From the NCBI GenBank assembly GCA_030612505.1, contig JAUWNU010000011.1, positions 1-33,694 of the forward strand: 33,694 nucleotides of DNA, given 5' to 3'. The position numbers were made by a program, and so were the translations under genes. The notes under the pieces are model-generated. The model ran no database searches and was not told the DNA's origin. It saw only the letters and a program-made list of their open reading frames with translations. The stretch is from Methanomassiliicoccales archaeon (GTDB lineage Archaea; Thermoplasmatota; Thermoplasmata; SG8-5). Numbering within the stretch: position 1 is the first letter of the stretch; each line of letters begins with the position of its first letter. Shown piece after piece: positions 5,816-33,693 of the stretch.

Positions 5816-6027
5816 GGTGTTTGAAATATGTTTGGATTACGTTTAGGTCCAGGGTGTTTGGAAAACAAAAATATGCTGGCAAATTTATGGCCAGCATTTT
5901 TCTAGACCCTCTTTAGCAATAACCAAGCAAAGACCCTCACTAACGATAACCATACATAGACCCTATCACTTTTGTATAAAAACACAGCCCCTAGACCCTA
6001 ACTAACGATAACCAAACACAGCCCCTA
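5800..6027. repeat. Repeat locus 1 of the AGGGTCTAGG / TAACGATAACCAAACATAGACCCT family
   Basis: Left arm agggtctagggactagggtgtttgaaatatgttt (5800-). Right arm has units TTTAGCAATAACCAAGCAAAGACCCTC, ACTAACGATAACCATACATAGACCCTA, ACTAACGATAACCAAACACAGCCCCTA and variant TCACTTTTGTATAAAAACACAG. Same motifs recur at 9977-10616. Confidence 0.85.
5873..5900 (+). terminator. Hairpin ATGCTGGC/GCCAGCAT followed by T-run, downstream of gcvPB
   Basis: atgctggc aaatttatg gccagcat ttttc; 8-bp perfect stem with flanking A/T runs, between convergent genes. Confidence 0.6.
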
Positions 6028-6777
6028 TACTTTGCGCCCAAAACAAAGATACCCAGTATGCCCCAGCATATCAAAACTGGGCCTTGTCCCGCCCTTGCCT
6101 ACAACCAGTTCTCGCTGAATATTCTCAAGCACATGGGTTTCGATATATCCAGCCTCACGCATTGCCTTGATTATTTTTTCCACTTGGTTCATGGTTGGCA
6201 GGTAGGCACACATGTATCCTCCTGGTTTCAGGGCCAATGTCATTTGCTCCAGTATGCTCCAGGGCTCAGGCATGTCCATTGTCACGGCATCATATTCCTC
6301 TTTATCATTGCAGGTGGCACCATCTGCCAGCCGCATTTCCACAATATTATCCATGCCTGCCAGTTCAATATTTTTCCTGGCTATATTAGAATGTTTTTCA
6401 ACCATCTCATAGGATATTATTTTTCCTGAGGGGCCAACATAATGGGCCATTACTATTGTCAAAGCGCCAGTGCCGGTTCCTATTTCCAGTATTTTTTTTC
6501 CAGGGCCGATGCTACAATTGAAAACTATCTGGGCAGAATCTTTTGGCATAATCCACTGTGGCCCGCGCTTGATGCTGGCCATTATATCTGGCAATGAGGG
6601 TTTCATCACCAGATAATCCTTTCCTGCTATTGTGACTGAACTTCCTGCCTGGGCTAGATTATCTGTGTTCACAACACCAAGTCCGCTAATCTGTTTCATT
6701 CCATCTCCGATTTTAATGATGTATTTTTGTCCTTTTTCATCAATCAAAGTTATGGCTTTTTTTTCGGAGCCGCTCAT
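6025..6777 (-). CDS. trmI: tRNA (adenine-N1)-methyltransferase, TrmI/Gcd14 family
   Basis: GPQWIMPKDSAQIVFNCSIGPGKKILEIGTGTGALTIVMA (SAM-binding motif I), MDMPEPWSILEQMTLALKPGGYMCAYLPTMNQVEKI, TRPSFDMLGHTGYLCFGRK. Confidence 0.9.
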   Translation of the reverse strand: MSGSEKKAITLIDEKGQKYIIKIGDGMKQISGLGVVNTDNLAQAGSSVTIAGKDYLVMKPSLPDIMASIKRGPQWIMPKDSAQIVFNCSIGPGKKILEIGTGTGALTIVMAHYVGPSGKIISYEMVEKHSNIARKNIELAGMDNIVEMRLADGATCNDKEEYDAVTMDMPEPWSILEQMTLALKPGGYMCAYLPTMNQVEKIIKAMREAGYIETHVLENIQRELVVGKGGTRPSFDMLGHTGYLCFGRKV

Positions 6778-9976: not shown

Positions 9977-10616
9977 AGGGTCTAGGGTGTTTGGAATATG
10001 TTAGGGTCTAGGGTCTTCGCAATTTTGACATTTAAATCCATGTGTGTGTCAAATTTGCGTATCTCCTATTTTTTACACTTAAAATAAATTGTAATCAAAA
10101 ATAGGATTTCAGGGTCTAGGGTCTAGGAAAATTAATTGGGCTGGAGGTTTAAAGCCAACAAGTAAGGGTCTAGGGTTCAGGGTCTTTGTTTATAGCTTAG
10201 TATAGAGGGTCTAGGAAAATTAATTAGGCTGGAGGTTTAAAGCCAACTTCCTAGACCCCCTTCTAACGATAACTAAACAAAGACCCTCATTAACAATAAC
10301 CAAGAATAGACCCCCTTTAACGATAACCAAACATAGACCCTCTTCTAACAATAACCAAACATAGACCCCCTTCTAACGATAACCAAACATAGACCCTCTC
10401 TAACGATAAACAAGCACAGACCCCCTCTAATGATAATTAAACAAAGACCCTTAATTAACGAAAACCAAATATAGACCCTCTCTAACGATAACCAAACATA
10501 GACCCTCATTAACAATAATTAAACAAAGACCCTATTACTTTTGTATAATAACTCAGACCCTCTCTAACGATAACCAAACATAGACCCTCAATAACAATAA
10601 CCAAGCACAGACCCTA
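9977..10616. repeat. Repeat locus 2: AGGGTCTAGG left arm, internal inverted repeats, 41-bp direct duplication and ~13-unit minisatellite
   Basis: Left arm agggtctagggtgtttggaatatgttagggtctaggg; 41-bp copies at 10119-10159 and 10207-10247 with one mismatch; array from 10261. Confidence 0.87.
10261..10616 (+). repeat. Spacerless ~27-bp tandem array, consensus YTAACRATAACCAAACATAGACCCYY, about 13 degenerate units
   Basis: Counted by eye, e.g. TTCTAACGATAACCAAACATAGACCCTC, TCTAACGATAACCAAACATAGACCCTC, ATTAACAATAATTAAACAAAGACCCTA. Confidence 0.9.
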
Positions 10617-15025: not shown

Positions 15026-15083
15026 CTTTCTACATATTTTTTTCCAATTGATAGAAAATTATATATTGACATCTGGGGATTGA

Positions 15084-16112
15084 GTGCACATGGGCGCCGC
15101 ATCAGAATCTGGGAAAGAGCCAATGATTTCAGCAAGCGCGCTTGAAAAATATGGCTATTGCCCATTGAGTTGGTGGCTCAGTCGCAGCAAGGATGACAAA
15201 GGCTCACCTGAACTGGCTAAGGGTGAGAAGGCACATGAGGATGTTGCAACAGACCTTGGAGGAATTGTTCAGGACGAGAGCCAGGCGAAAGTTTTTGAGT
15301 CTGTGGTTCTCTGGTTCGCCATTGCCGCTACATTGATTTCCATTATTGGTGTTTCTTTCATTGTTGAGGTAGAAGTGGACATTGGAATGATTATGGGAGC
15401 TATAGCACTTATTTGGGTGCTGGCTGCTTGCTATTTCCTCTACAAGGCAGAGACAATGCCCAAGGGCATATCCACCCTTAGATATCAAAGAATAATACTC
15501 ATTTTTGCACTTGTGGCAACAGTCATTGGCGTATTATCGGTTACCCTGCTTTCAGATTTTTTCCACCCAGAGGTTGCCCAGATATTGCAGGCCATATCAT
15601 TAGCTTGGCTTGTTGGTGCCTGTTATTTCCTATATCATTCTCTGAAACGATTTGAACTTGCAATGTTCAAGCGAAGAAAGCACAAGGTTCGTCATGGTAT
15701 AGCCTATATTGATTCTCAGAAAAAGAAGCCCAAATTATTTGTTTCTGAAAAATACAGATTATCTGGCAGGCCAGATTTCGTGCTCCTGATTGAAGACGAG
15801 CATATACCTGTTGAACTCAAGACTGGCCGGATTCCCCGAGGGCCACTGTTCTCACACATTCTCCAGGTTGCAACCTATTGTGTTTTAATGGAGGAAGAGT
15901 TCGGCAGCCCACCGTCACATGGCATAATCAGATATGGCCAGGTGGAAAATGAAATAGAGTATGACGAAAGCCTCAAGGATATGGTCTTAAAAAAAGCGAA
16001 TGAAATGCGTAGTTTTTTGATATCTGGCGGAGATGTTCACCGAAATCACAATAAGCCAGGCAAATGTAAACATTGTTCCAGGAGAAATATTTGCTCTGAG
16101 AAATTAGCTTGA
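15084..16112 (+). CDS. Cas4/RecB-like PD-(D/E)XK nuclease-family protein with four embedded TM helices and Cys motifs at both ends
   Basis: MISASALEKYGYCPLSWWLSR near N-term; TM segments VVLWFAIAATLISIIGVSFIV, IGMIMGAIALIWVLAACYFLY, IILIFALVATVIGVLSVTLLS, ILQAISLAWLVGACYFLYH; SGRPDFVLLIEDEHIPVELKTGRIPRGPLFSHILQVATYCVLMEE; C-term GKCKHCSRRNICSEKL. Confidence 0.82.
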   Translation: MHMGAASESGKEPMISASALEKYGYCPLSWWLSRSKDDKGSPELAKGEKAHEDVATDLGGIVQDESQAKVFESVVLWFAIAATLISIIGVSFIVEVEVDIGMIMGAIALIWVLAACYFLYKAETMPKGISTLRYQRIILIFALVATVIGVLSVTLLSDFFHPEVAQILQAISLAWLVGACYFLYHSLKRFELAMFKRRKHKVRHGIAYIDSQKKKPKLFVSEKYRLSGRPDFVLLIEDEHIPVELKTGRIPRGPLFSHILQVATYCVLMEEEFGSPPSHGIIRYGQVENEIEYDESLKDMVLKKANEMRSFLISGGDVHRNHNKPGKCKHCSRRNICSEKLA

Positions 16113-16168: not shown

Positions 16169-17650
16169 ATGGACGAGCCATTACCTGTTGATAAGGTTCC
16201 TGAAGTTCTGGAAACAGAATCATATTCTACAGAACCGAATTCTGTAGAATCAAATTCTGAAGAAACACCAGTGCCAGAACCCGAGATACCAAGAAATTAT
16301 TATCAACATCCACCTCCGTCGCCAGTGCCCCAAATGGTGTATCGGCCGCCCCAGGAGCCTATCAAAGAAATGTTCAGGATAATCAAGGCAATGCTCTGGA
16401 GCACTGCTTTCATATCTTATCTGATGATTCTGGTATTGAGTTTCATAATAGTGCTGGCCATGACCCCTGAAATACAGGAATGGATTACCACCCCATCAAT
16501 TCCATCGGCTGATGATCCCTCAGTGCTTCTGCTTCCTGAGGGTGTGTTTTTCCTTATATTTCCAGTTCCAGTTTTATTATTTACCTTCAGCGGAGCAGGA
16601 TTTCAAGCCTGGCATATTCTCATGTTGTCCATTCTAATATTGGCATTTTCCTATGGGAAATATGATTTAATCAAGGACTGGCTCTCCAGGAAAAACCAGG
16701 TTTTACTCTCATTAACAGCCCCGGAAAAGGCAAAGAGCAGCCTTGAAGGTGTGGCCAAATTATTCATGGCTAGCTCATTTTTCGGTATGGTTTATTTTGT
16801 ATTTCTGGCAATAACCAATGTTGAGATGAATACGCCAAATTTTGATGAGTTCTCCAGGCCTGAATTGATATATGGTCTGTTCAATGCTGCTGTCTTTGAA
16901 GAACTAATATCAAGACTTTTACTCATTGGAGTGCCTCTTTTAATAATCGCATTAGTCAAAAGATGGAATAATCCATTGAAAAAACTTATCGGAGGAGGGC
17001 TGGACATAAACTACATGACCATGGGATTGATCACTTTCTCGGCAATCTTCTTCGCCCTGGCCCATGTGGGAGGCTGGGACTTCTGGAAGGTACCTCAGGT
17101 TCTAGTCACTGGCTTCGCATTGGGATATGCCTTTGTTAGATATGGGCTGCATGCTTCAATCCTTGTTCATTTCTCGATTAATCTCACCAGTTCGGCCCTG
17201 GAAATCTGGCCTGATAATATTATCCTAGGCAGCATACTGGGTATGGCATACTTCATCTGGATAATCATTGGAGGATACTTCTTCTTTGATTATATCTGGA
17301 GATTATTGAAGAAATTAGGAACAATTCAGGAACCCAGGCCAGCTCAGCAGATGCCGCCTCAGCATGGTTATCCACCACAGCATCCAGGTTATTCGCCCCA
17401 GGCTGGCCAGCAATATCAAGGCCCGCCTCCGCAATATGCTTATAATCCACAAACAGGCCAGCAGCCGTACAATGTTCCACCTCCACCCATTGCTCAACCG
17501 GAACCCAAGGGTTTTGTCTGTCCAAATTGCGGCAATACCGGTGCAATCTATTCCCAGGGCAAGCTCACATGCATGAGATGCGGCACTTCCTTTGGAGACA
17601 GCAAGCCAACTGAGCCAGAAACAAATGAAAAAGAAATGTATGATTTTTAA
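16169..17650 (+). CDS. CPBP-family intramembrane metalloprotease with Pro/Gln-rich linker and C-terminal zinc ribbon
   Basis: FEELISRLLLIGVPLL, FFALAHVGGWDFWKVPQVLVTGFALGYAFVRYGLHASILVHFSIN; tail FVCPNCGNTGAIYSQGKLTCMRCGTSF. Confidence 0.88.
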   Translation: MDEPLPVDKVPEVLETESYSTEPNSVESNSEETPVPEPEIPRNYYQHPPPSPVPQMVYRPPQEPIKEMFRIIKAMLWSTAFISYLMILVLSFIIVLAMTPEIQEWITTPSIPSADDPSVLLLPEGVFFLIFPVPVLLFTFSGAGFQAWHILMLSILILAFSYGKYDLIKDWLSRKNQVLLSLTAPEKAKSSLEGVAKLFMASSFFGMVYFVFLAITNVEMNTPNFDEFSRPELIYGLFNAAVFEELISRLLLIGVPLLIIALVKRWNNPLKKLIGGGLDINYMTMGLITFSAIFFALAHVGGWDFWKVPQVLVTGFALGYAFVRYGLHASILVHFSINLTSSALEIWPDNIILGSILGMAYFIWIIIGGYFFFDYIWRLLKKLGTIQEPRPAQQMPPQHGYPPQHPGYSPQAGQQYQGPPPQYAYNPQTGQQPYNVPPPPIAQPEPKGFVCPNCGNTGAIYSQGKLTCMRCGTSFGDSKPTEPETNEKEMYDF

Positions 17651-22350: not shown

Positions 22351-22591
22351 ATTATTAAACATTTGCTACGCCCTAATACCGCTGCTTTCGGGTATCGGCC
22401 CGAAAGCAGAGCTGCTATGGTCCAGTGAGACTATAGCAGTGTAACCTTCAGGTTTGCGGATACAGGGCGAGTTCGTCAAAATGAGCAATCATTTTATCGG
22501 ACTAGCATGTGTTTGATAAGGGCTCCAATCCCAGATGTCCTAGACGTCTGATAGGGATACCTCAGGCTTTAGCCTTGGGGAGCCCTCATTC
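22351..22591 (+). ncRNA. Structured element copy A (putative ncRNA or mobile/regulatory element), upstream of purH
   Basis: Long-range P1 TTATTAAACATTTGCTA / TAGCATGTGTTTGATAA; P2 CGCCCT/AGGGCG and CCGC/GCGG; P3 CTGCTTTCGGG/CCCGAAAGCAG; copy-specific hairpin CTGCTATGGTC/GACTATAGCAG; P4 AAAATGA/TCATTTT; 3' GGGCTCC/GGAGCCC domain. TATA-like ctataaaaatac at 22330-22341. Confidence 0.72.
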
Positions 22592-24213: not shown

Positions 24214-26121
24214 ATGATAAGTCAGTCAGAATATGATGAGGCAATAAACTGGCTTTATGATTTGCAATTTTTTGGCATGAAGCTGGGCCTTTCAAATACA
24301 CTGACTTTGCTTGAAGAGCTTGGGAATCCTCATGAGAAGTTCAGTTCGATACATGTTGCCGGTTCAAACGGCAAGGGTTCTGTTTGTGCTTTTCTGACCT
24401 CAATTTTGAAAGAGTCTGGAAAAAAAGTTGGGACATATACCTCACCACATCTGAGCCAGTTCGGAGAACGCATATCAATCAATGGAATTCCAATGACCAG
24501 AACTGAAGTGGTCAAGGCAATTCAGTATATTCGCCCTCATGTCGAAAAGCTGCAAAAAAAAGACATCCAGTGCACATTTTTTGAGACCACAACCTGCATG
24601 GCGTTTCATCATTTTGCCAGGCGCAGAATCGACATTGCAGTCATTGAAGTCGGAATGGGCGGAAGACTGGACTCCACAAATGTCATAATACCAGAACTTG
24701 TGGTCATAACCAATATTTCCAAAGAGCATAGCCAGCATCTTGGCGAAAGTATAGAGGAAATAGCTGGAGAGAAGGCAGGAATTATTAAGAAAGGTGTGGC
24801 AACAATTACATCGGTACAAGACAAAAAAGCATTAACAGTCGTAGCCAGTCAATGCAAAAAAATGAAGTCCAAATTGTACAATATTCATGATAAAAAGCTT
24901 GAAATTTTAGATTCTGATCTATTTGGAATTACTCTTAAAAGTCATGGAGTTGAATTGCGAATAAAATTACCTGGCCAACATCAGGCAGTGAATGCTGCAA
25001 CCGCTGCCCTTGCTGCCGAAACCATGGGCATTAAAAAAGAGGCAATCAAAAAGGGACTAGCCAGTACTGAATGGCCTGGCCGGCTTCAGGTTATTCGAAG
25101 AAGCCCCACAATGATTCTGGATTCAACCCACAATCCCGGGGGTGCAGATGCACTGGCCGCCTTCCTCAAGCAGCAAAAAATCAAGCCGATTTTGATTATT
25201 GGCATGTTGGAGGATAAAGAAATTTTGCCAGTGGTCAAGGCTCTGGAACCGCTGGCCAGCAAGATTATTGTCACCCAACCCGATTATCATCGAAAAATGA
25301 ATGCGAAAGAATTAGCCAGCCATTTTTCCAGTAAGGTTGAAATTGTTTCAAAATTACCAAAGGCGGTTGATAAGGCAATGAAATCCGCCAATGAAAATGA
25401 TATAATTTTAATTACTGGCTCGATTTTTACGGCATCCCAGGCACTTGCCCATCATAATTTATTCAGAATCAATGAGGCAGTGGAGAAACTCTCTGATATT
25501 TACGGTATTGGGGCATATCCTGGCCGGGACCCTGTGACAGATGGACCTCCGCCTCCTGGCTCTCAAAATCCGTTCCGCGTGTTAATATCTACAATCCTCT
25601 CGCAGCGCACAAAGGATGAGAACACCCATATAGCTACAGAGCAATTATTTGCCAAATATGATACACCAAAGAAACTCTCTGCTGCAAAACCTGAAAATAT
25701 TTATGACTTAATTCGGCCTGCTGGTTTCTATAAACAAAAGGCAGAAAAAATCATCCAGACATCCAAAATAGTTTATGAAAAGTACAGCTCAAATGTGCCT
25801 GACACCATGGATGAGTTGATATCGCTGCCTGGTGTTGGCCGCAAAACAGCCAGCTGTGTTCTTGCATACGGCTTCGGGCTACCGGCAATTGCTGTTGACA
25901 CTCATGTTCATCGAATTTGTAATTTGCTGGGCCTGGTGAAAACCTCAAAGCCAGATGATACAGAAGAATCATTAATGTTCTTAGTGCCTCAGGAACATTG
26001 GCATGATATAAATCGGCTACTGGTACGGCATGGCCAGAGCATCTGCCGGCCTATTAATCCAAGATGTCATGAATGCCCAATAGCTCATATTTGTGATTTT
26101 GGAATTTACCGTTTAAAATAA
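24214..26121 (+). CDS. folC-nth: FolC-Nth fusion: folylpolyglutamate/dihydrofolate synthase fused to endonuclease III with 4Fe-4S cluster
   Basis: FolC: IHVAGSNGKGSVCAFLTSILKESGKKVGTYTSPHLSQFGERI, DSTHNPGGADALAAFL, LITGSIFTASQAL. Nth: PFRVLISTILSQRTKDENT, LPGVGRKTASCVLAYGFGLPAIAVDTHVHRI, CRPINPRCHECPIAHIC (C-x6-C-x2-C-x5-C). Confidence 0.93.
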   Translation: MISQSEYDEAINWLYDLQFFGMKLGLSNTLTLLEELGNPHEKFSSIHVAGSNGKGSVCAFLTSILKESGKKVGTYTSPHLSQFGERISINGIPMTRTEVVKAIQYIRPHVEKLQKKDIQCTFFETTTCMAFHHFARRRIDIAVIEVGMGGRLDSTNVIIPELVVITNISKEHSQHLGESIEEIAGEKAGIIKKGVATITSVQDKKALTVVASQCKKMKSKLYNIHDKKLEILDSDLFGITLKSHGVELRIKLPGQHQAVNAATAALAAETMGIKKEAIKKGLASTEWPGRLQVIRRSPTMILDSTHNPGGADALAAFLKQQKIKPILIIGMLEDKEILPVVKALEPLASKIIVTQPDYHRKMNAKELASHFSSKVEIVSKLPKAVDKAMKSANENDIILITGSIFTASQALAHHNLFRINEAVEKLSDIYGIGAYPGRDPVTDGPPPPGSQNPFRVLISTILSQRTKDENTHIATEQLFAKYDTPKKLSAAKPENIYDLIRPAGFYKQKAEKIIQTSKIVYEKYSSNVPDTMDELISLPGVGRKTASCVLAYGFGLPAIAVDTHVHRICNLLGLVKTSKPDDTEESLMFLVPQEHWHDINRLLVRHGQSICRPINPRCHECPIAHICDFGIYRLK

Positions 26122-26315
26122 TTATTAAACACGCGCCACGCCCTAAAACCGCTGCTTTCGGGTTAACGCCCGAAAGCAGAGCAACTTTCAGGTTTGCGGA
26201 TACAGGGCGCCTATCAAAATGATACCCATCATTTTATCGGATTGGCGTGTTTTTAATAAGGGCTCCAACACATTTGATGGAAGACCCCATGCTTTAGCGT
26301 GGGGAGCCCTCATTC
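26121..26315 (+). ncRNA. Structured element copy B (homologous to 22351-22591), directly after folC-nth
   Basis: P1 TTATTAAACACGCGCCA / TTGGCGTGTTTTTAATAA; shared P2 and P3; aactttcaggtttgcggatacagggcg; P4 AAAATGAT/ATCATTTT; CCCCATGC TTTA GCGTGGGG; AGGGCT/AGCCCT. Confidence 0.72.
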
Positions 26316-28131: not shown

Positions 28132-29841
28132 ATGGGAATAAAACAATCAATGATGAAAAAGATGCTCAAAAGCAAATCCATGACCATGAAGGTCAAGGTT
28201 CCCAAAGGCGAGATAGAGCTTCAGAAGAAATGGAAGGAAGGTAAAGGTTCTCCATTATGCCCGATTCCCGATATCATAAAATCTTATATTGAGGAAAAAG
28301 AAATTTACGCAATCAGAGAACCATACAGCTACTGCCGAATCATTTACAATAATATAGAATCCGAATTCGTCTATGAAATTCACGAGCCAGATCTCAGCGA
28401 TAAGGAGAGTGAGACACTAGCTCTAATCAAGGACTCGCTTCAGAGAACTCTGGAATATGAACTTGACAAGATGGAAATTAAAGACAAGAGCGAATACCTG
28501 AAAAAGAGTGTTGACAGCTTTATTAAGAGCCGCGAGATGCGTCTTGAACCTTCAACAATTAAGAAAATTCATTATTATATAATCCGTGATTATGTTGGAT
28601 ATGGCCATATTGATTCATTGATGAATGATGAGTATATTGAGGACGTATCCTGCGATGGGACTGCGGTTCCGCTATTTGTGTATCATCAAAAATATGAATC
28701 CATTAAGACCGATGTTCTCTTTGAAGAAGAAGTTGACCTCAACAGCTTTGTAATTTATTTAGGCCAGCGTTGTGGAAAGCAGGTTTCTGTGTCCATGCCT
28801 ATTCTTGATGGTACCACAAGAGAGGGTCACAGAGTTCAGGCTACATATGGCACAGAAGTTACCACGCGTGGTTCATCATTCACAATTAGACGTTATAAAG
28901 AGAAACCTTTCACTCCGGTGGAACTTGTTACATACGGAACAGCCTCTGCACAAATGGTTGCATATGCCTGGATGCTTGTGGAACATGGCCAGTCAATGAT
29001 TATTGCCGGAGGCACTGCAAGTGGTAAAACAGCAACTCTTAATGCATTGGCTTTGTTCATCAAGCCAGGTGCAAAAATTATTACAATGGAGGACACAAGA
29101 GAAATAAATCTGCCCCATGAGAACTGGATTCCAAGTACCACCAGAACTGGAACTGGAGCCAGAGATGCAGAAGGCAAAGTTGAGGGTGAGATAGACATGT
29201 TCGAGCTTGTCAGGGCAGCTCTCAGACAGAGGCCCGAGTATATCATTGTAGGAGAGGTCAGAGGAGCAGAGACCGCAACAATGTTCCAGGCAATGGCAAC
29301 AGGTCACACCACATATTCCACCATGCACGCAGATTCTGTCAAATCAATGGTCAATAGGCTTGAAAATCCGCCAATCAGCACTCCAAGGATTTTGCTTACC
29401 GCACTGAATTTCGTTATTATCCAGAAGCATGAAAGAGTGGGCGATAGCATTGTAAGGCGCATAGTACAGATTGTGGAGCTTGTTGGTTTCGAGCCAGAGA
29501 CAAATGAGTTAATCACCAATACAGTCTATGACTGGGACCAGCGCAATGATTCGTTCATCTACAAAGGTCACAGTTTCATTCTGGACCAGATCATGGAGAT
29601 GAAGAACATGACCCATGAGGAAATGGACGCTGAAATGAGACGCCGAGAAGATATAATCAAATACATGATTGAAACAGAAGTCTTGGATTTCAATGAAATA
29701 TCCAGAATTGTTGTTGCATATTACAAAGAACCAATGGAGACCATCCAGAATATAAGGGATGAGATGGGCTGGGTGGATCCGGCTACACTTATTGGAGAAG
29801 GAGAAGGAGAAGAAGGAGGAGGTTTAGGCATTGGCGCATGA
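28132..29841 (+). CDS. Type IV filament assembly ATPase, FlaI/TadA/GspE family (paralog 1)
   Basis: Walker A IIAGGTASGKTATLNALALF, EDTREINLPHENWIPSTTRTG, MFELVRAALRQRPEYIIVGEVRGAETATMFQAMATGHTTYSTMHAD. Confidence 0.94.
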   Translation: MGIKQSMMKKMLKSKSMTMKVKVPKGEIELQKKWKEGKGSPLCPIPDIIKSYIEEKEIYAIREPYSYCRIIYNNIESEFVYEIHEPDLSDKESETLALIKDSLQRTLEYELDKMEIKDKSEYLKKSVDSFIKSREMRLEPSTIKKIHYYIIRDYVGYGHIDSLMNDEYIEDVSCDGTAVPLFVYHQKYESIKTDVLFEEEVDLNSFVIYLGQRCGKQVSVSMPILDGTTREGHRVQATYGTEVTTRGSSFTIRRYKEKPFTPVELVTYGTASAQMVAYAWMLVEHGQSMIIAGGTASGKTATLNALALFIKPGAKIITMEDTREINLPHENWIPSTTRTGTGARDAEGKVEGEIDMFELVRAALRQRPEYIIVGEVRGAETATMFQAMATGHTTYSTMHADSVKSMVNRLENPPISTPRILLTALNFVIIQKHERVGDSIVRRIVQIVELVGFEPETNELITNTVYDWDQRNDSFIYKGHSFILDQIMEMKNMTHEEMDAEMRRREDIIKYMIETEVLDFNEISRIVVAYYKEPMETIQNIRDEMGWVDPATLIGEGEGEEGGGLGIGA

Positions 29842-30844
29842 AACACAAGACACGTTCCAACAACTGGAGACCAAAGACCGCCATCTTAAAACCAAGACTA
29901 CCAAGGAAGTGATAGACCATGGTCCACACCTTATCAGGCTTCCCAAGGGTGCAGTTCCTGAATATATCAAATTAACATCATTCAAGGAACTGAGCTGGAG
30001 AGTTATGGGAAATTATGTGAAAAAGAAGTATGAGGAAGATCAAGAACTAGAAGAAAATCTTCTTAAAGCTCATATGAAGATAAGGCCGGAAGAATACATG
30101 GCATTCATTTACATGACTGCTATTATTCTGGGCATACTTGGAGTTATAGGTGGAATAGTTCTGGCACTTGTACTTATTCTCTTTATGGACAATTTGGTCA
30201 TGGGCATTATGCTAGCCATTGCACTACCTATTGGTTTACCCATTATGGTCATGATTCTTTTGAAACACTCACCAGCTGGCAAAGCAAAATCCAGAGGCAG
30301 GGATATTGACAAGAGAATTTCCTCATCAATGAGTTTCATATCTGCAATGGCATCTGCAAATGTGCCTGTTGATACGATTTTCAAGGAACTATCCAGGCAG
30401 CCAGTGTATGGTGAGATTCAGAAAGAGGCAGAGTGGATTACAAGAGACACCGAGCTTTTGGGCATTGATATTCTCACTGCAATCAAGCGAGGTTCAATGC
30501 GCTCCCCATCACAGAAGTTCCAGGATTTCCTTCAGGGAGTGGTTACAACCTCCAGATCTGGCGGTCAGTTAAAACCATATTTCCTTCTCAAGGCAGAGGA
30601 ATATGAGAAGGAAAATAAATTAGCACTCAAGCAAACTATGGAAACCCTTTCCATGATGGGCGAATCCTATGTGACTGTGGTTGTGGCTTTCCCACTTTTC
30701 CTTGTGGTAATATTAGCGATTATGGCGATTATCGGCGGTAATTCCGAAAACACACTTATGATTCTGTGGCTGGTTGTGGGTCTGATGATTCCACTTTCCC
30801 AGTTCGGTTTCATATTTGTTGTATGGAATATTAGCCAGGAGTGA
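29831..30844 (+). CDS. Type IV filament platform membrane protein, FlaJ/TadC family (paralog 1)
   Basis: DKRISSSMSFISAMASANVPVDTIFKELSRQPVYGEIQKEAEWITRDTELLGIDILTAIKRGSMRSPSQKFQDFLQGVVTTSRSGGQLKPYFLLKAEEYEKE, with multiple TMs. Confidence 0.9.
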   Translation: MAHETQDTFQQLETKDRHLKTKTTKEVIDHGPHLIRLPKGAVPEYIKLTSFKELSWRVMGNYVKKKYEEDQELEENLLKAHMKIRPEEYMAFIYMTAIILGILGVIGGIVLALVLILFMDNLVMGIMLAIALPIGLPIMVMILLKHSPAGKAKSRGRDIDKRISSSMSFISAMASANVPVDTIFKELSRQPVYGEIQKEAEWITRDTELLGIDILTAIKRGSMRSPSQKFQDFLQGVVTTSRSGGQLKPYFLLKAEEYEKENKLALKQTMETLSMMGESYVTVVVAFPLFLVVILAIMAIIGGNSENTLMILWLVVGLMIPLSQFGFIFVVWNISQE

Positions 30845-30848
30845 TAAA

Positions 30849-31964
30849 ATGGCACAAATGACAAAGGACGAAATGAAAAAGGTCGTGATGGCGAAAAAGC
30901 GCGATTTTACCAGATTAATCCTTGTTTTGAGCGCTATTGGGTTTACAATATTCATATTATTTGGCTTCATGAATTTAACAAATCAGATTGACTGGTCATT
31001 GAAAAGCGTTCCCACTCAGGATCTCAATGGTGATGGTATTATTCAGATACCCGAGGAAATGGGATTAGATACAAATGAAAATGGCATGATTGATTCAGGC
31101 GATGTCTTTGATGGATATGATTCAGGAGATCCCTATGATATGGATGGTGATGGCGATTATGAAGAATTTGACGGCATTCCTGATCAAGGGCAATCGCCTA
31201 CCCAGCGCTTCCTTAACCTCCTGTTCTTGGGTCTTGCTGTCATGATGGGCCCATGGGCTTTCTACACTTCCAAGAAACAAGCAGATCTTCAGGCAATTGA
31301 GAGAAGATTGCCAGATTTCCTTAGAGATGTTGCAGAAGCAGGCAGATTCGGTATGACACTGGCTGACGCAATAGTAGTTGCATCATCTGGTCGTTATGGA
31401 AAGCTCACGCCTGAGATCAAGAAAATGGCGGCTCAGATAGAGTGGGGAGTCCCTGCAAGCGAAACCTTGAGGATGTTTTCAGATAGAATTGACACGCCTT
31501 TGGTGGCCAGAGTGGTCACCATTGTAATCAAGGCCAGTGATGCAGGCGGAAGCGTAGCAGATGTTCTTGCCATGGTTGCCCATGACACAAGAGAAGAACA
31601 ATTATCCCAGCGAGAGAGAGAGATTCAAATGAGTACTTATCTGGCTGTTATTTACATATCATTCGCTGTGTTCCTTGTTACAATTATCATTCTTCAGCTT
31701 ACTTTCCTGCCGAAAATACGGCTGGCAGGTACAAATGTAGCTCTAGCTGCAGAGGAAGCTGGCATAGCCGGTGGCGTGGGCGGAGCTTCATTGGATGTAA
31801 GTGCAATACCCAGTATTGAGATTGCATTTTTCGTGTCTTCAATGATACATGCCGTAGGTGACGGTGCAATGGCAGGTGTGCTTCAAAATGGCAGCATTCC
31901 CAATGGTTTACGGCATAGTGTTATCATGTTGATATTGGGTTTCTTAATATTGACTTTGATGTAG
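30849..31964 (+). CDS. Type IV filament platform membrane protein, FlaJ/TadC family (paralog 2), with EF-hand-like Asp-rich loop
   Basis: ERRLPDFLRDVAEAGRFGMTLADAIVVASSGRYGKLTPEIKKMAAQIEWGVPASETLRMFSDRIDTPLVARVVTIVIKASDAGGSVADVLAMVAHDTRE; loop DLNGDGIIQIPEEMGLDTNENGMIDSGDVFDGYDSGDPYDMDGDGDYEEFD. ATG 30849 preferred over TTG 30816. Confidence 0.9.
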   Translation: MAQMTKDEMKKVVMAKKRDFTRLILVLSAIGFTIFILFGFMNLTNQIDWSLKSVPTQDLNGDGIIQIPEEMGLDTNENGMIDSGDVFDGYDSGDPYDMDGDGDYEEFDGIPDQGQSPTQRFLNLLFLGLAVMMGPWAFYTSKKQADLQAIERRLPDFLRDVAEAGRFGMTLADAIVVASSGRYGKLTPEIKKMAAQIEWGVPASETLRMFSDRIDTPLVARVVTIVIKASDAGGSVADVLAMVAHDTREEQLSQREREIQMSTYLAVIYISFAVFLVTIIILQLTFLPKIRLAGTNVALAAEEAGIAGGVGGASLDVSAIPSIEIAFFVSSMIHAVGDGAMAGVLQNGSIPNGLRHSVIMLILGFLILTLM

Positions 31965-31977
31965 GGAGCGGAGAAAA

Positions 31978-33693
31978 ATGGCAGATTCGGTTACAGATGA
32001 ACAGGCAGTCATGGAAGACGATTCCATTGCCGAGGTTGATGTCAAAAAGAAAGGGCCTAGCTTCCTGGATAATATAAAAAAATCCTATATGAACAAACTC
32101 AAGGGCAAGAGACAAATTAAGATCATTGCTCCAAAGGGCGCTCAAGATGCTAGAGAGGTTCTAGAAGGCATCACCACCATACCGAAAATAGTTGAGAAAC
32201 ATATTCAGGAAATTGAAATAGACCCCATCATTGATGGATATTCCTATGTTCGAATCAAATATGACAATATTGCCAATGACTATCTTTATGAGGTTATTGA
32301 ACCAAAGCTAACCGAGGAAGAAGAAGATGTTCTTGAGGTGCTTAAGGAAACCATGATTGATTCCCTGGAATTCCTTGAAGATGCAACAATGGATGAGAAG
32401 GAAAAATATCTCAGAAAGGGTGTTGACAGCCTTCTTGTGGATATCGGAATTCAGCTTAATCCAATTTCCAAGGAAAGAATTGTATATTATATTCTAAGAG
32501 ATTTCACAAGGTATGGTGCAATTGACGTAACCATGATAGATGTCCAGGTAGAGGATGTGTCCTGTGATGGTATGAATGTACCTCTCTATATTTTCCACAG
32601 AAAATACGGCTCTATTCAATCCAATTTAAGATTCACAACCTCTGAAGAGCTTGATGGATTTGTTGTCTGGCTTGCACAGCGTTGTGGTAAGCATATTTCT
32701 GTGGCAGAACCAATGCTGGATGCAACGGTTCCAGATGGTTCAAGATTGCAGGCCACCCTTGGAACCCACGTTACAAAGCGCGGTTCATCTTTTACCATCA
32801 GACGATTTAGAGAGAATCCTTTCACACCACTGGACATGATTAAGTTTAAAACAATGTCAGTAGACATGATGGCATATCTCTGGCTTTGCATTGAGAATGG
32901 TAAATCTATTCTTGTATGTGGCGGTACAGCCAGCGGTAAAACTACTACTCTGAATGCGATTCTGCTGTTTATTCCGCCACAGATGAAAATTGTAAGTATT
33001 GAGGATACTAGAGAATTAAATCTGCCACACGAGAACTGGGTGCCGCTATTGACACGTTCTGGTTTTGGTGGAAAGGATGCCAGCGGAAAGACTGCTGGAG
33101 AGATTGATATGTTCGAACTTCTCACTGCTGCGCTAAGACAGCGCCCACAATACATGATGATTGGTGAGGTAAGAGGTTCAGAAGCCTATGTGGTTTTCCA
33201 GGCAATGGCCACTGGAAAGAGTGCTTACACCACTTTCCACGCTGAAGATGTTCAAGCTATGGTTCACAGAATGGAACAGCCGCCAATTGAGGTTCCAAGG
33301 GCACTATTAGCCGCTCTAAACCTTGTTCTCATGCAGGCTCAGGTGAAGGTCGGCACGCAAATGACAAGGCGTGTAAAGTCCCTTACAGAGATTGTTGGAA
33401 TCGACCCTGATTCCAATGAACTTATCACAAATGCAGTTTATGTCTGGAACCCGGCAGATGATACATTCAATTACAGCGGTCACAGTTATATCTACGAGCA
33501 GATATCCATGACAAAGGGCTGGAGCCAGAGGGAAATGATGCGCGAGGTAAAAAGGCGTACAAGATTACTCACATATCTCAAGGCCCAAAATGTCAGCTAT
33601 AAGCACGTTGCCAGATATGTCTCAGGTTATTACACCAATCCAGAGAAGCTAATGAAAGAAGTATCTGATTATGAGGACGCTGCTGCTGAATAA
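31978..33693 (+). CDS. Type IV filament assembly ATPase, FlaI/TadA/GspE family (paralog 2)
   Basis: LVCGGTASGKTTTLNAILLFIPPQMKIVSIEDTRELNLPHENWVPLLTRSG, MFELLTAALRQRPQYMMIGEVRGSEAYVVFQAMATGKSAYTTFHAEDVQAMVHRMEQPP. Confidence 0.94.
   Translation: MADSVTDEQAVMEDDSIAEVDVKKKGPSFLDNIKKSYMNKLKGKRQIKIIAPKGAQDAREVLEGITTIPKIVEKHIQEIEIDPIIDGYSYVRIKYDNIANDYLYEVIEPKLTEEEEDVLEVLKETMIDSLEFLEDATMDEKEKYLRKGVDSLLVDIGIQLNPISKERIVYYILRDFTRYGAIDVTMIDVQVEDVSCDGMNVPLYIFHRKYGSIQSNLRFTTSEELDGFVVWLAQRCGKHISVAEPMLDATVPDGSRLQATLGTHVTKRGSSFTIRRFRENPFTPLDMIKFKTMSVDMMAYLWLCIENGKSILVCGGTASGKTTTLNAILLFIPPQMKIVSIEDTRELNLPHENWVPLLTRSGFGGKDASGKTAGEIDMFELLTAALRQRPQYMMIGEVRGSEAYVVFQAMATGKSAYTTFHAEDVQAMVHRMEQPPIEVPRALLAALNLVLMQAQVKVGTQMTRRVKSLTEIVGIDPDSNELITNAVYVWNPADDTFNYSGHSYIYEQISMTKGWSQREMMREVKRRTRLLTYLKAQNVSYKHVARYVSGYYTNPEKLMKEVSDYEDAAAE

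Follow-up and report, generated by a model that had tools for sequence, protein, structure and literature searches.

A predicted membrane-embedded Cas4-family nuclease encoded away from CRISPR loci in the Thermoplasmatota

The common view of Cas4-type nucleases is that they are soluble and assist CRISPR adaptation or, if encoded alone, that they are presumed repair enzymes. The locus described here raises the question of what such a nuclease would do if it were built into a membrane and encoded away from any CRISPR system. It lies in a window of 33,694 nucleotides, the whole stretch of DNA that was analysed, from a Methanomassiliicoccales archaeon (GenBank assembly GCA_030612505.1, contig JAUWNU010000011.1). 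An initial annotation of this window had proposed a membrane-tethered Fe-S nuclease with a role in DNA uptake, degradation of incoming DNA or membrane-linked repair.

Identity, membrane module and predicted fold

The open reading frame (Table 1) is predicted to encode a Cas4-family PD-(D/E)XK nuclease. Its C-terminal half is matched by Pfam PDDEXK_1 (E 3.8e-12) and Cas_Cas4 (PF01930; E 2.8e-7, 31.2 bits against a cut-off of 22.7), by NCBIfam cas4 (TIGR00372; 79.4 bits against a curated cut-off of 65) and by the PADLOC Cas4 model, and the sole notable sequence match in the PDB is a type I-C Cas4 (8d3l, E 0.0037). The Cas4-like cysteine motifs and nuclease core of the initial annotation could be located, with Cas4 profiles above their cut-offs; the C-terminal motif CKHCSRRNIC spans residues 328-337 of the 342-residue product. 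ATG 15090 is likelier than GTG 15084 to be the translation start, and the closeness of a TATA-like box to this ATG suggests a leaderless transcript.

Table 1. Features of the nuclease gene and its downstream neighbour, in window positions; residue numbers are those of the 342-residue product.
Feature	Position	Strand	Basis or remark
Predicted membrane-embedded Cas4-family nuclease gene	15084..16112	+	342 aa from GTG; open reading frame and profile matches
Probable true start, ATG	15090	+	would give 340 aa; homolog alignment and upstream TATA-like box
TATA-box-like sequence (TATATA)	15060..15066	+	about 26 nt 5' of ATG 15090
YCPLSWW with Cys1 (C26), residues 25-31	15156..15176	+	invariant or nearly so in 28-90 orthologs
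Motif I, G47-x-x-x-H51	15222..15236	+	invariant in orthologs
Predicted transmembrane hairpin 1: TM1 ~73-93, TM2 ~100-121	15300..15446	+	hydropathy, loop charge bias, AlphaFold2 helices
Predicted transmembrane hairpin 2: TM3 ~134-155, TM4 ~164-185	15483..15638	+	duplicate of hairpin 1 by shuffle test
GRPD motif with predicted catalytic D231 (GRPDF, residues 228-232)	15765..15776	+	ortholog conservation
PVELKTG (residues 242-248) with predicted catalytic E244-x-K246	15807..15827	+	E-x-K in 69/73 orthologs
Q261-x-x-x-Y265, RecB-type QxxxY motif (QVATY, 261-265)	15864..15878	+	SHxxQ in 70/73
HRNH, family-specific and conserved	16038..16049	+	73/73 orthologs
C328-x2-C331-x5-C337, putative Fe-S ligands with C26	16065..16094	+	73/73 orthologs
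Rce1-like CAAX-type membrane protease, C-terminal zinc ribbon	16169..17650	+	Pfam PF02517; 56 nt downstream

Hydropathy places four hydrophobic segments, at residues of about 75-93, 100-118, 137-155 and 164-182, between motif I and the catalytic Asp, and both hydropathy and AlphaFold2 predict four transmembrane helices inside the nuclease, as expected from the two helix pairs that the initial annotation had described. The internal duplication that it had read in these pairs was also borne out, in that the two hairpins aligned at an offset of 64 with a profile-profile score of 28.2, a value reached by none of 2000 controls in which columns were shuffled within helices (mean -9.7, sd 4.9). Among 83 sequences, Lys or Arg occurs in the TM1-2 loop in 37% and in the TM3-4 loop in 31%, and in both the TM2-3 loop and the C-terminal flank after TM4 in 100%. 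By the positive-inside rule, this charge distribution would place both halves of the nuclease, and with them the active site, on the cytoplasmic face of the membrane.

The AlphaFold2 model (mean pLDDT 84.8 with 90 relatives and 76.9 with 28) has the PD-(D/E)XK fold, the absence of which from a predicted structure the initial annotation had named as counter-evidence. In it the motif I helix runs unbroken into TM1 (residues 42-91, or 40-89 in the numbering of the 340-residue form), and TM4 leads through a long helix to the first strand of the nuclease core. Cas4 came first when the model was searched with Foldseek, the top match being the type I-C Cas4 8d3q_J (E 4.5e-5, rmsd 2.4 Å over 135 columns), with Cas4/1 fusions, the Argonaute-associated ACE1, Pcal_0546 (4r5q), MGME1, Dna2 and AdnAB at later ranks.

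The nuclease shares with CRISPR Cas4 (COG1468, PF01930, TIGR00372; 8d3q, 4r5q) the PD-(D/E)XK core, the GxxxH, D, E-x-K and QxxxY motifs, and the arrangement of one N-terminal and three C-terminal cysteines. Unlike CRISPR Cas4, it is encoded away from cas genes and either carries 2, 4 or 8 helices inside the domain or is split. A compact, helix-free domain is typical of Cas4 without being a curated criterion, and as such we file the helix-bearing nuclease as a variant. MGME1, Dna2 and AddB/AdnAB-type RecB nucleases fall in the same Foldseek fold group, but are soluble, usually have helicase domains or partners, and are without a membrane insert; a 4Cys Fe-S cluster is present in Dna2 and in nucleases of the AddAB type. 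DruK and other PD-(D/E)XK defence nucleases in PADLOC show weaker similarity, confined to the catalytic half and far below the Cas4 scores, and the nuclease described here has no defence context. To our knowledge, the solo-Cas4 proteins for which there is biochemistry are soluble.

Archaeal solo-Cas4 genes are common and inherited mainly vertically (Hudaiberdiev et al. 2017, PMC5704561), and resemble the present gene in lying outside cas loci, in this largely vertical inheritance and in having a function that is obscure or repair-like. The main text of that study contains the word "membrane" once, in an unrelated gene abbreviation, and describes no membrane-embedded or split Cas4. The terms nuclease, RecB and Cas4 are all absent from a survey of archaeal membrane proteins (PMC5898192), and a search of open-access full text likewise returned no membrane-embedded or split Cas4. 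As far as this literature goes, the membrane-embedded and split Cas4 architecture appears to be new, though an annotation-level mention may exist elsewhere.

Distribution, conservation and split forms

Orthologs are present in 50 of the 61 genomes of relatives, in 249 genomes of a phylum-wide sample of 390 from the Thermoplasmatota (E <= 1e-10) and in 269 of 400 genomes of a class-level sample, totals that count split forms and whose weakest matches may include a few other Cas4-type proteins. A scan of 84,980 species with two motif patterns returned 175 relatives, of which the 80 listed bear names such as Thermoplasmata, Methanomassiliicoccales, DHVE2 group, halophilic Thermoplasmata or euryarchaeal MAG, and we infer that these 80 belong to the Thermoplasmatota. 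A tree of the catalytic half groups sequences largely by family, and the families are largely monophyletic. The nuclease is a mostly vertically inherited, chromosomal gene that is nearly always single-copy; one genome of family f12 (G050) has C-halves at two separate loci (L048 and L050), each with its own upstream N-half. The gene has been lost from most of family f8 and from some genera of family f18, and so is not essential everywhere.

Cys1, GxxxH, G[RK]PD, HRNH and CxxC-x5-C are each present in all 73 named orthologs, with E-x-K in 69 of these (D-x-K in the other four) and SHxxQ in 70, and the same motifs are near-invariant in an alignment of 90 sequences. The catalytic residues and cysteines are kept down to about 33% identity. 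Since the catalytic motifs and four cysteines are retained in all or nearly all orthologs, the loss of catalytic residues that the initial annotation had named as evidence against a nuclease was not seen.

The hydrophobic insert occurs in a series of sizes. Two helices are found at L154-L161, L170 and L175, eight at L043, L045, L046, L152, L153, L162 and L165, and four in most other rows of the comparison, including the protein of the window; these counts come from a simple hydropathy window applied to rows that are mostly MAGs, and in a few rows a weakly hydrophobic last helix led to a count of three. In families f12, f18 and f42 the nuclease is split into two adjacent or overlapping genes. 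The N-half (about 80-111 aa) has Cys1, GxxxH and one C-terminal helix, and the C-half (about 166-195 aa) has one N-terminal helix, GKPD or GRPD, E-x-K, Q and three cysteines, such that each half carries one helix at its broken end. In the 23 split loci the two genes are mostly spaced by -19 to +26 nt, and each of the three relative frames and each of the three stop codons is represented, which argues that the halves are separate genes. This variety of frames and stops, with the terminal helices, rules out frameshifts, sequencing errors and programmed recoding as sources of the split. At L194 the N-half was found, and L193 is without an ordinary start close to the junction. The split pairs are genuine two-gene forms, in which translation of the halves is probably coupled. 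In the tree, splitting falls in at least two places (f12, and f42 with f18) and at least 11 changes of architecture are needed, in a tree of 145 columns only, which for that reason leaves many forks unresolved. The series suggests that separation of the nuclease halves is tolerated provided that both are bound to the membrane, and the split two-subunit forms are small and suited to biochemistry.

Variation of this kind might be taken to mean that the membrane module is the functional part and that the nuclease fold acts as a sensor, a scaffold or an RNA cutter. The helix number of the hydrophobic part does vary freely, and the family-specific HRNH and PRGPxFSH motifs lack explanation. However, D, E-x-K, Q and the four cysteines are near-invariant across the phylum and in every architecture, split ones included, which argues for catalysis, and we regard a non-catalytic or non-DNA role as very improbable.

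Gene neighbourhoods and genomic context

The initial annotation had advised a survey of the neighbours of homologs, and these proved to be specific to clades, with none universal. In the window, the gene upstream of the nuclease encodes a divergent protein of the MTNA/IF-2B family (an MTNA-type isomerase), and the CAAX protease downstream keeps its place beside the nuclease in no family but that of the window. Elsewhere, a TPD/CDIN1-type nuclease (PF14811) lies directly upstream on the same strand with short or overlapping spacing at 22 loci. A further 19 loci, including two weak matches in family f17, have in this position a C-terminally anchored protein that carries a signal peptide, a PKD domain, lamin-tail domains (LTD) and two PLDc domains (LTD-PLDc), in several families with a spacing of about 1-24 nt or an overlap; at L069 the LTD-PLDc gene lies at +3 genes instead of adjoining the nuclease gene. 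In f17, a gene for a giant LTD-containing protein precedes the nuclease gene. The gene for a 2098-residue protein that combines HhH, TPR, zinc-ribbon and lamin-tail domains (L045:496-6789) extends over the start of a nuclease gene of the 8-helix type.

The gene order in family f18 is SMC (Pfam match 1.1e-26), a kleisin-like gene, N-half, C-half and a class I W/Y tRNA synthetase-type gene. The kleisin-like gene (L195:479-1249, L192:488-1258 and other f18 loci) overlaps the start of the split nuclease. From its position after SMC, its DPWD motif and a weak Pfam match (ScpA, E 0.0012, below the cut-off, at one locus; Rad21_Rec8, E 0.21), it looks like a diverged kleisin. The split pair of f42 sits beside ABCE1/RLI and an aRF1-like gene.

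The recurrence in separate clades of neighbours that act on DNA or chromosomes, namely TPD/CDIN1, LTD-PLDc and SMC with the kleisin-like protein, counts in favour of a housekeeping role in membrane-tethered DNA processing. Against this, the window's own neighbours say nothing about DNA, and no neighbour is common to the whole family. TPD is present in 49 of the 61 relatives' genomes, and being near-universal its adjacency may be less telling; families f11, f12 and f18 are without a full-length LTD-PLDc protein, and f8 mostly has LTD-PLDc without the membrane nuclease, so that neither partner is obligate. A conserved operon partner throughout the phylum was sought and not found. On balance, we consider a housekeeping role in DNA processing at the membrane about evenly poised between right and wrong.

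The LTD-PLDc operons make DNA scavenging the main rival, in which LTD-PLDc nucleases at the cell surface would cleave DNA from the environment and the Cas4-type enzyme in the membrane would degrade or trim the entering strand for nutrients or recombination. In its favour are the direct succession of an anchored, signal-peptide-bearing LTD and two-PLDc protein and the nuclease in several families and the giant LTD-containing protein of f17; the membrane location itself would suit the entry of DNA, and the window contains an operon-like run at 28132-33693 that encodes two ATPases of the type II/IV secretion or archaellum type as well as two T2SSF membrane proteins. This run is possibly a duplicated pilus assembly system. 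However, ComEC (PF03772) was found in none of the 61 genomes, in a search that was positive in 10 control genomes, and no channel was identified. ComEC-based uptake was rejected on this absence, which disfavours classical DNA uptake and with it the uptake role suggested by the initial annotation. In addition, f11, f12 and f18 have the nuclease without full-length LTD-PLDc, f8 mostly shows the reverse, and PLD domains may act on lipids. We therefore judge scavenging unlikely, and retain housekeeping DNA processing as the preferred reading.

Neither cas genes nor a CRISPR-like array were seen in the window, in agreement with the placement of the nuclease outside any CRISPR context by the initial annotation. 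The gene is as such not encoded with cas1, cas2 or an array, the context that defines CAS-Cas4. At 10252-10615 a 27-nt unit (TAGACCCTCTTTAACGATAACCAAACA) is repeated in tandem about 13 times, with stray copies 4 kb away at 5904-5966 and 5993-6028; the tandem units stand head-to-tail without spacers and hence are not a CRISPR array. The genome of the window does have a type I-E-like cas locus on another contig (C133 of G000; L213:827-3504), with Cas5/6/7-like genes, cas1, cas2 and three repeats of 61-nt period, and without cas4; genes there were named from order and sequence, and cas1 from a cas1 search. Among the 61 relatives, cas1 is found in 19, some of them without the membrane nuclease, and in one of the genomes (G040) a gene for a soluble Cas4 adjoins cas1 (L215) and the membrane form lies on a different contig. 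On the genomic context and the lack of association with cas1, a CRISPR adaptation nuclease was rejected.

Mobile origins were also considered. Neither the IMG/VR scans of viral contigs nor the phage records contained a relative, and plasmid matches were distant Cas4-type proteins that covered less than 45% of the query, such that a mobile-element or viral Cas4 was rejected. In a paper on casposons in which Aciduliprofundum is mentioned, the one Cas4-like domain belongs to another element, HenMar-C1 (PMC4046053), and in a presumed relative of Aciduliprofundum (G024) a distance of about 80 kb or more separates the membrane nuclease from either cas1; casposon cargo was rejected on these grounds.

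A nuclease stationed at the membrane could alternatively serve defence, by degrading injected viral or plasmid DNA or by trimming prespacers for CRISPR adaptation. Cas4 homologs act in adaptation, solo-Cas4 genes lie near restriction-modification genes in some DPANN archaea (PMC5704561), and a membrane position would meet entering DNA. The pattern of cas genes described above runs counter to this, with cas1 in a minority of genomes and not confined to those with the membrane nuclease, no cas4 in the window genome's own CRISPR locus, and at least one genome with a separate soluble Cas4 next to cas1. The nuclease is moreover a near-universal, mostly vertical, single-copy core gene in ordinary neighbourhoods, which makes dedicated defence less likely, and with it the degradation of incoming DNA that had been suggested for this locus. 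Defence is in our estimation decidedly unlikely, and housekeeping DNA processing is again the reading that we carry forward.

Several other features of the window may be recorded. A direct repeat of about 890 nt is present in three copies at 1-2548, with 64-86% likeness between them; the copies probably encode a repeated surface-protein domain that extends past the window start. A single ORF at 24214-26121 fuses folylpolyglutamate/dihydrofolate synthase (FolC) with an endonuclease III (Nth) domain. An element of 150-180 nt occurs twice, 3.7 kb apart, at 22351-22528 before purH and at 26121-26268 after the folC-nth ORF; it holds a strong hairpin (CTGCTTTCGGGT...GCCCGAAAGCAG) and has no Rfam match, and no RNA families were found in the window.

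Possible role at the membrane

Among the roles offered by the initial annotation, membrane-linked DNA processing is the best fit. The N-terminal half of the nuclease would contribute Cys1 and motif I, and the C-terminal half D, E-x-K, Q and Cys2-4, both from the cytoplasmic face. An even number of helices would join the two halves, or in the split forms one helix from each, and as such the active site would assemble at the membrane surface, together with a probable 4Cys Fe-S cluster that is predicted from the cysteines. Most probably the enzyme would there serve the routine processing of ends, flaps or single strands of DNA on the inner side of the membrane, for chromosome maintenance, replication or repair rather than CRISPR adaptation. 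One CAS-Cas4 is a 5' to 3' exonuclease that cleaves flaps and splayed arms (PMC12538437).

A more speculative proposal, to which we assign a low chance of being right, is that the membrane module is more than an anchor and that the two nuclease halves, each tied to the membrane, build a composite active site and share an Fe-S cluster only once the helices pair. If this were true, the nuclease would be gated by the membrane or by redox state and would thread or sense DNA there, a form of control not described before for a PD-(D/E)XK enzyme, and split forms that share one Fe-S cluster across two polypeptides would be unusual composite enzymes.

One archaeal phylum thus appears to keep a Cas4-type nuclease in the form of a membrane protein, whose splitting into separate genes apparently arose at least twice. 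This raises the question of which DNA an archaeal cell must cut at its membrane.
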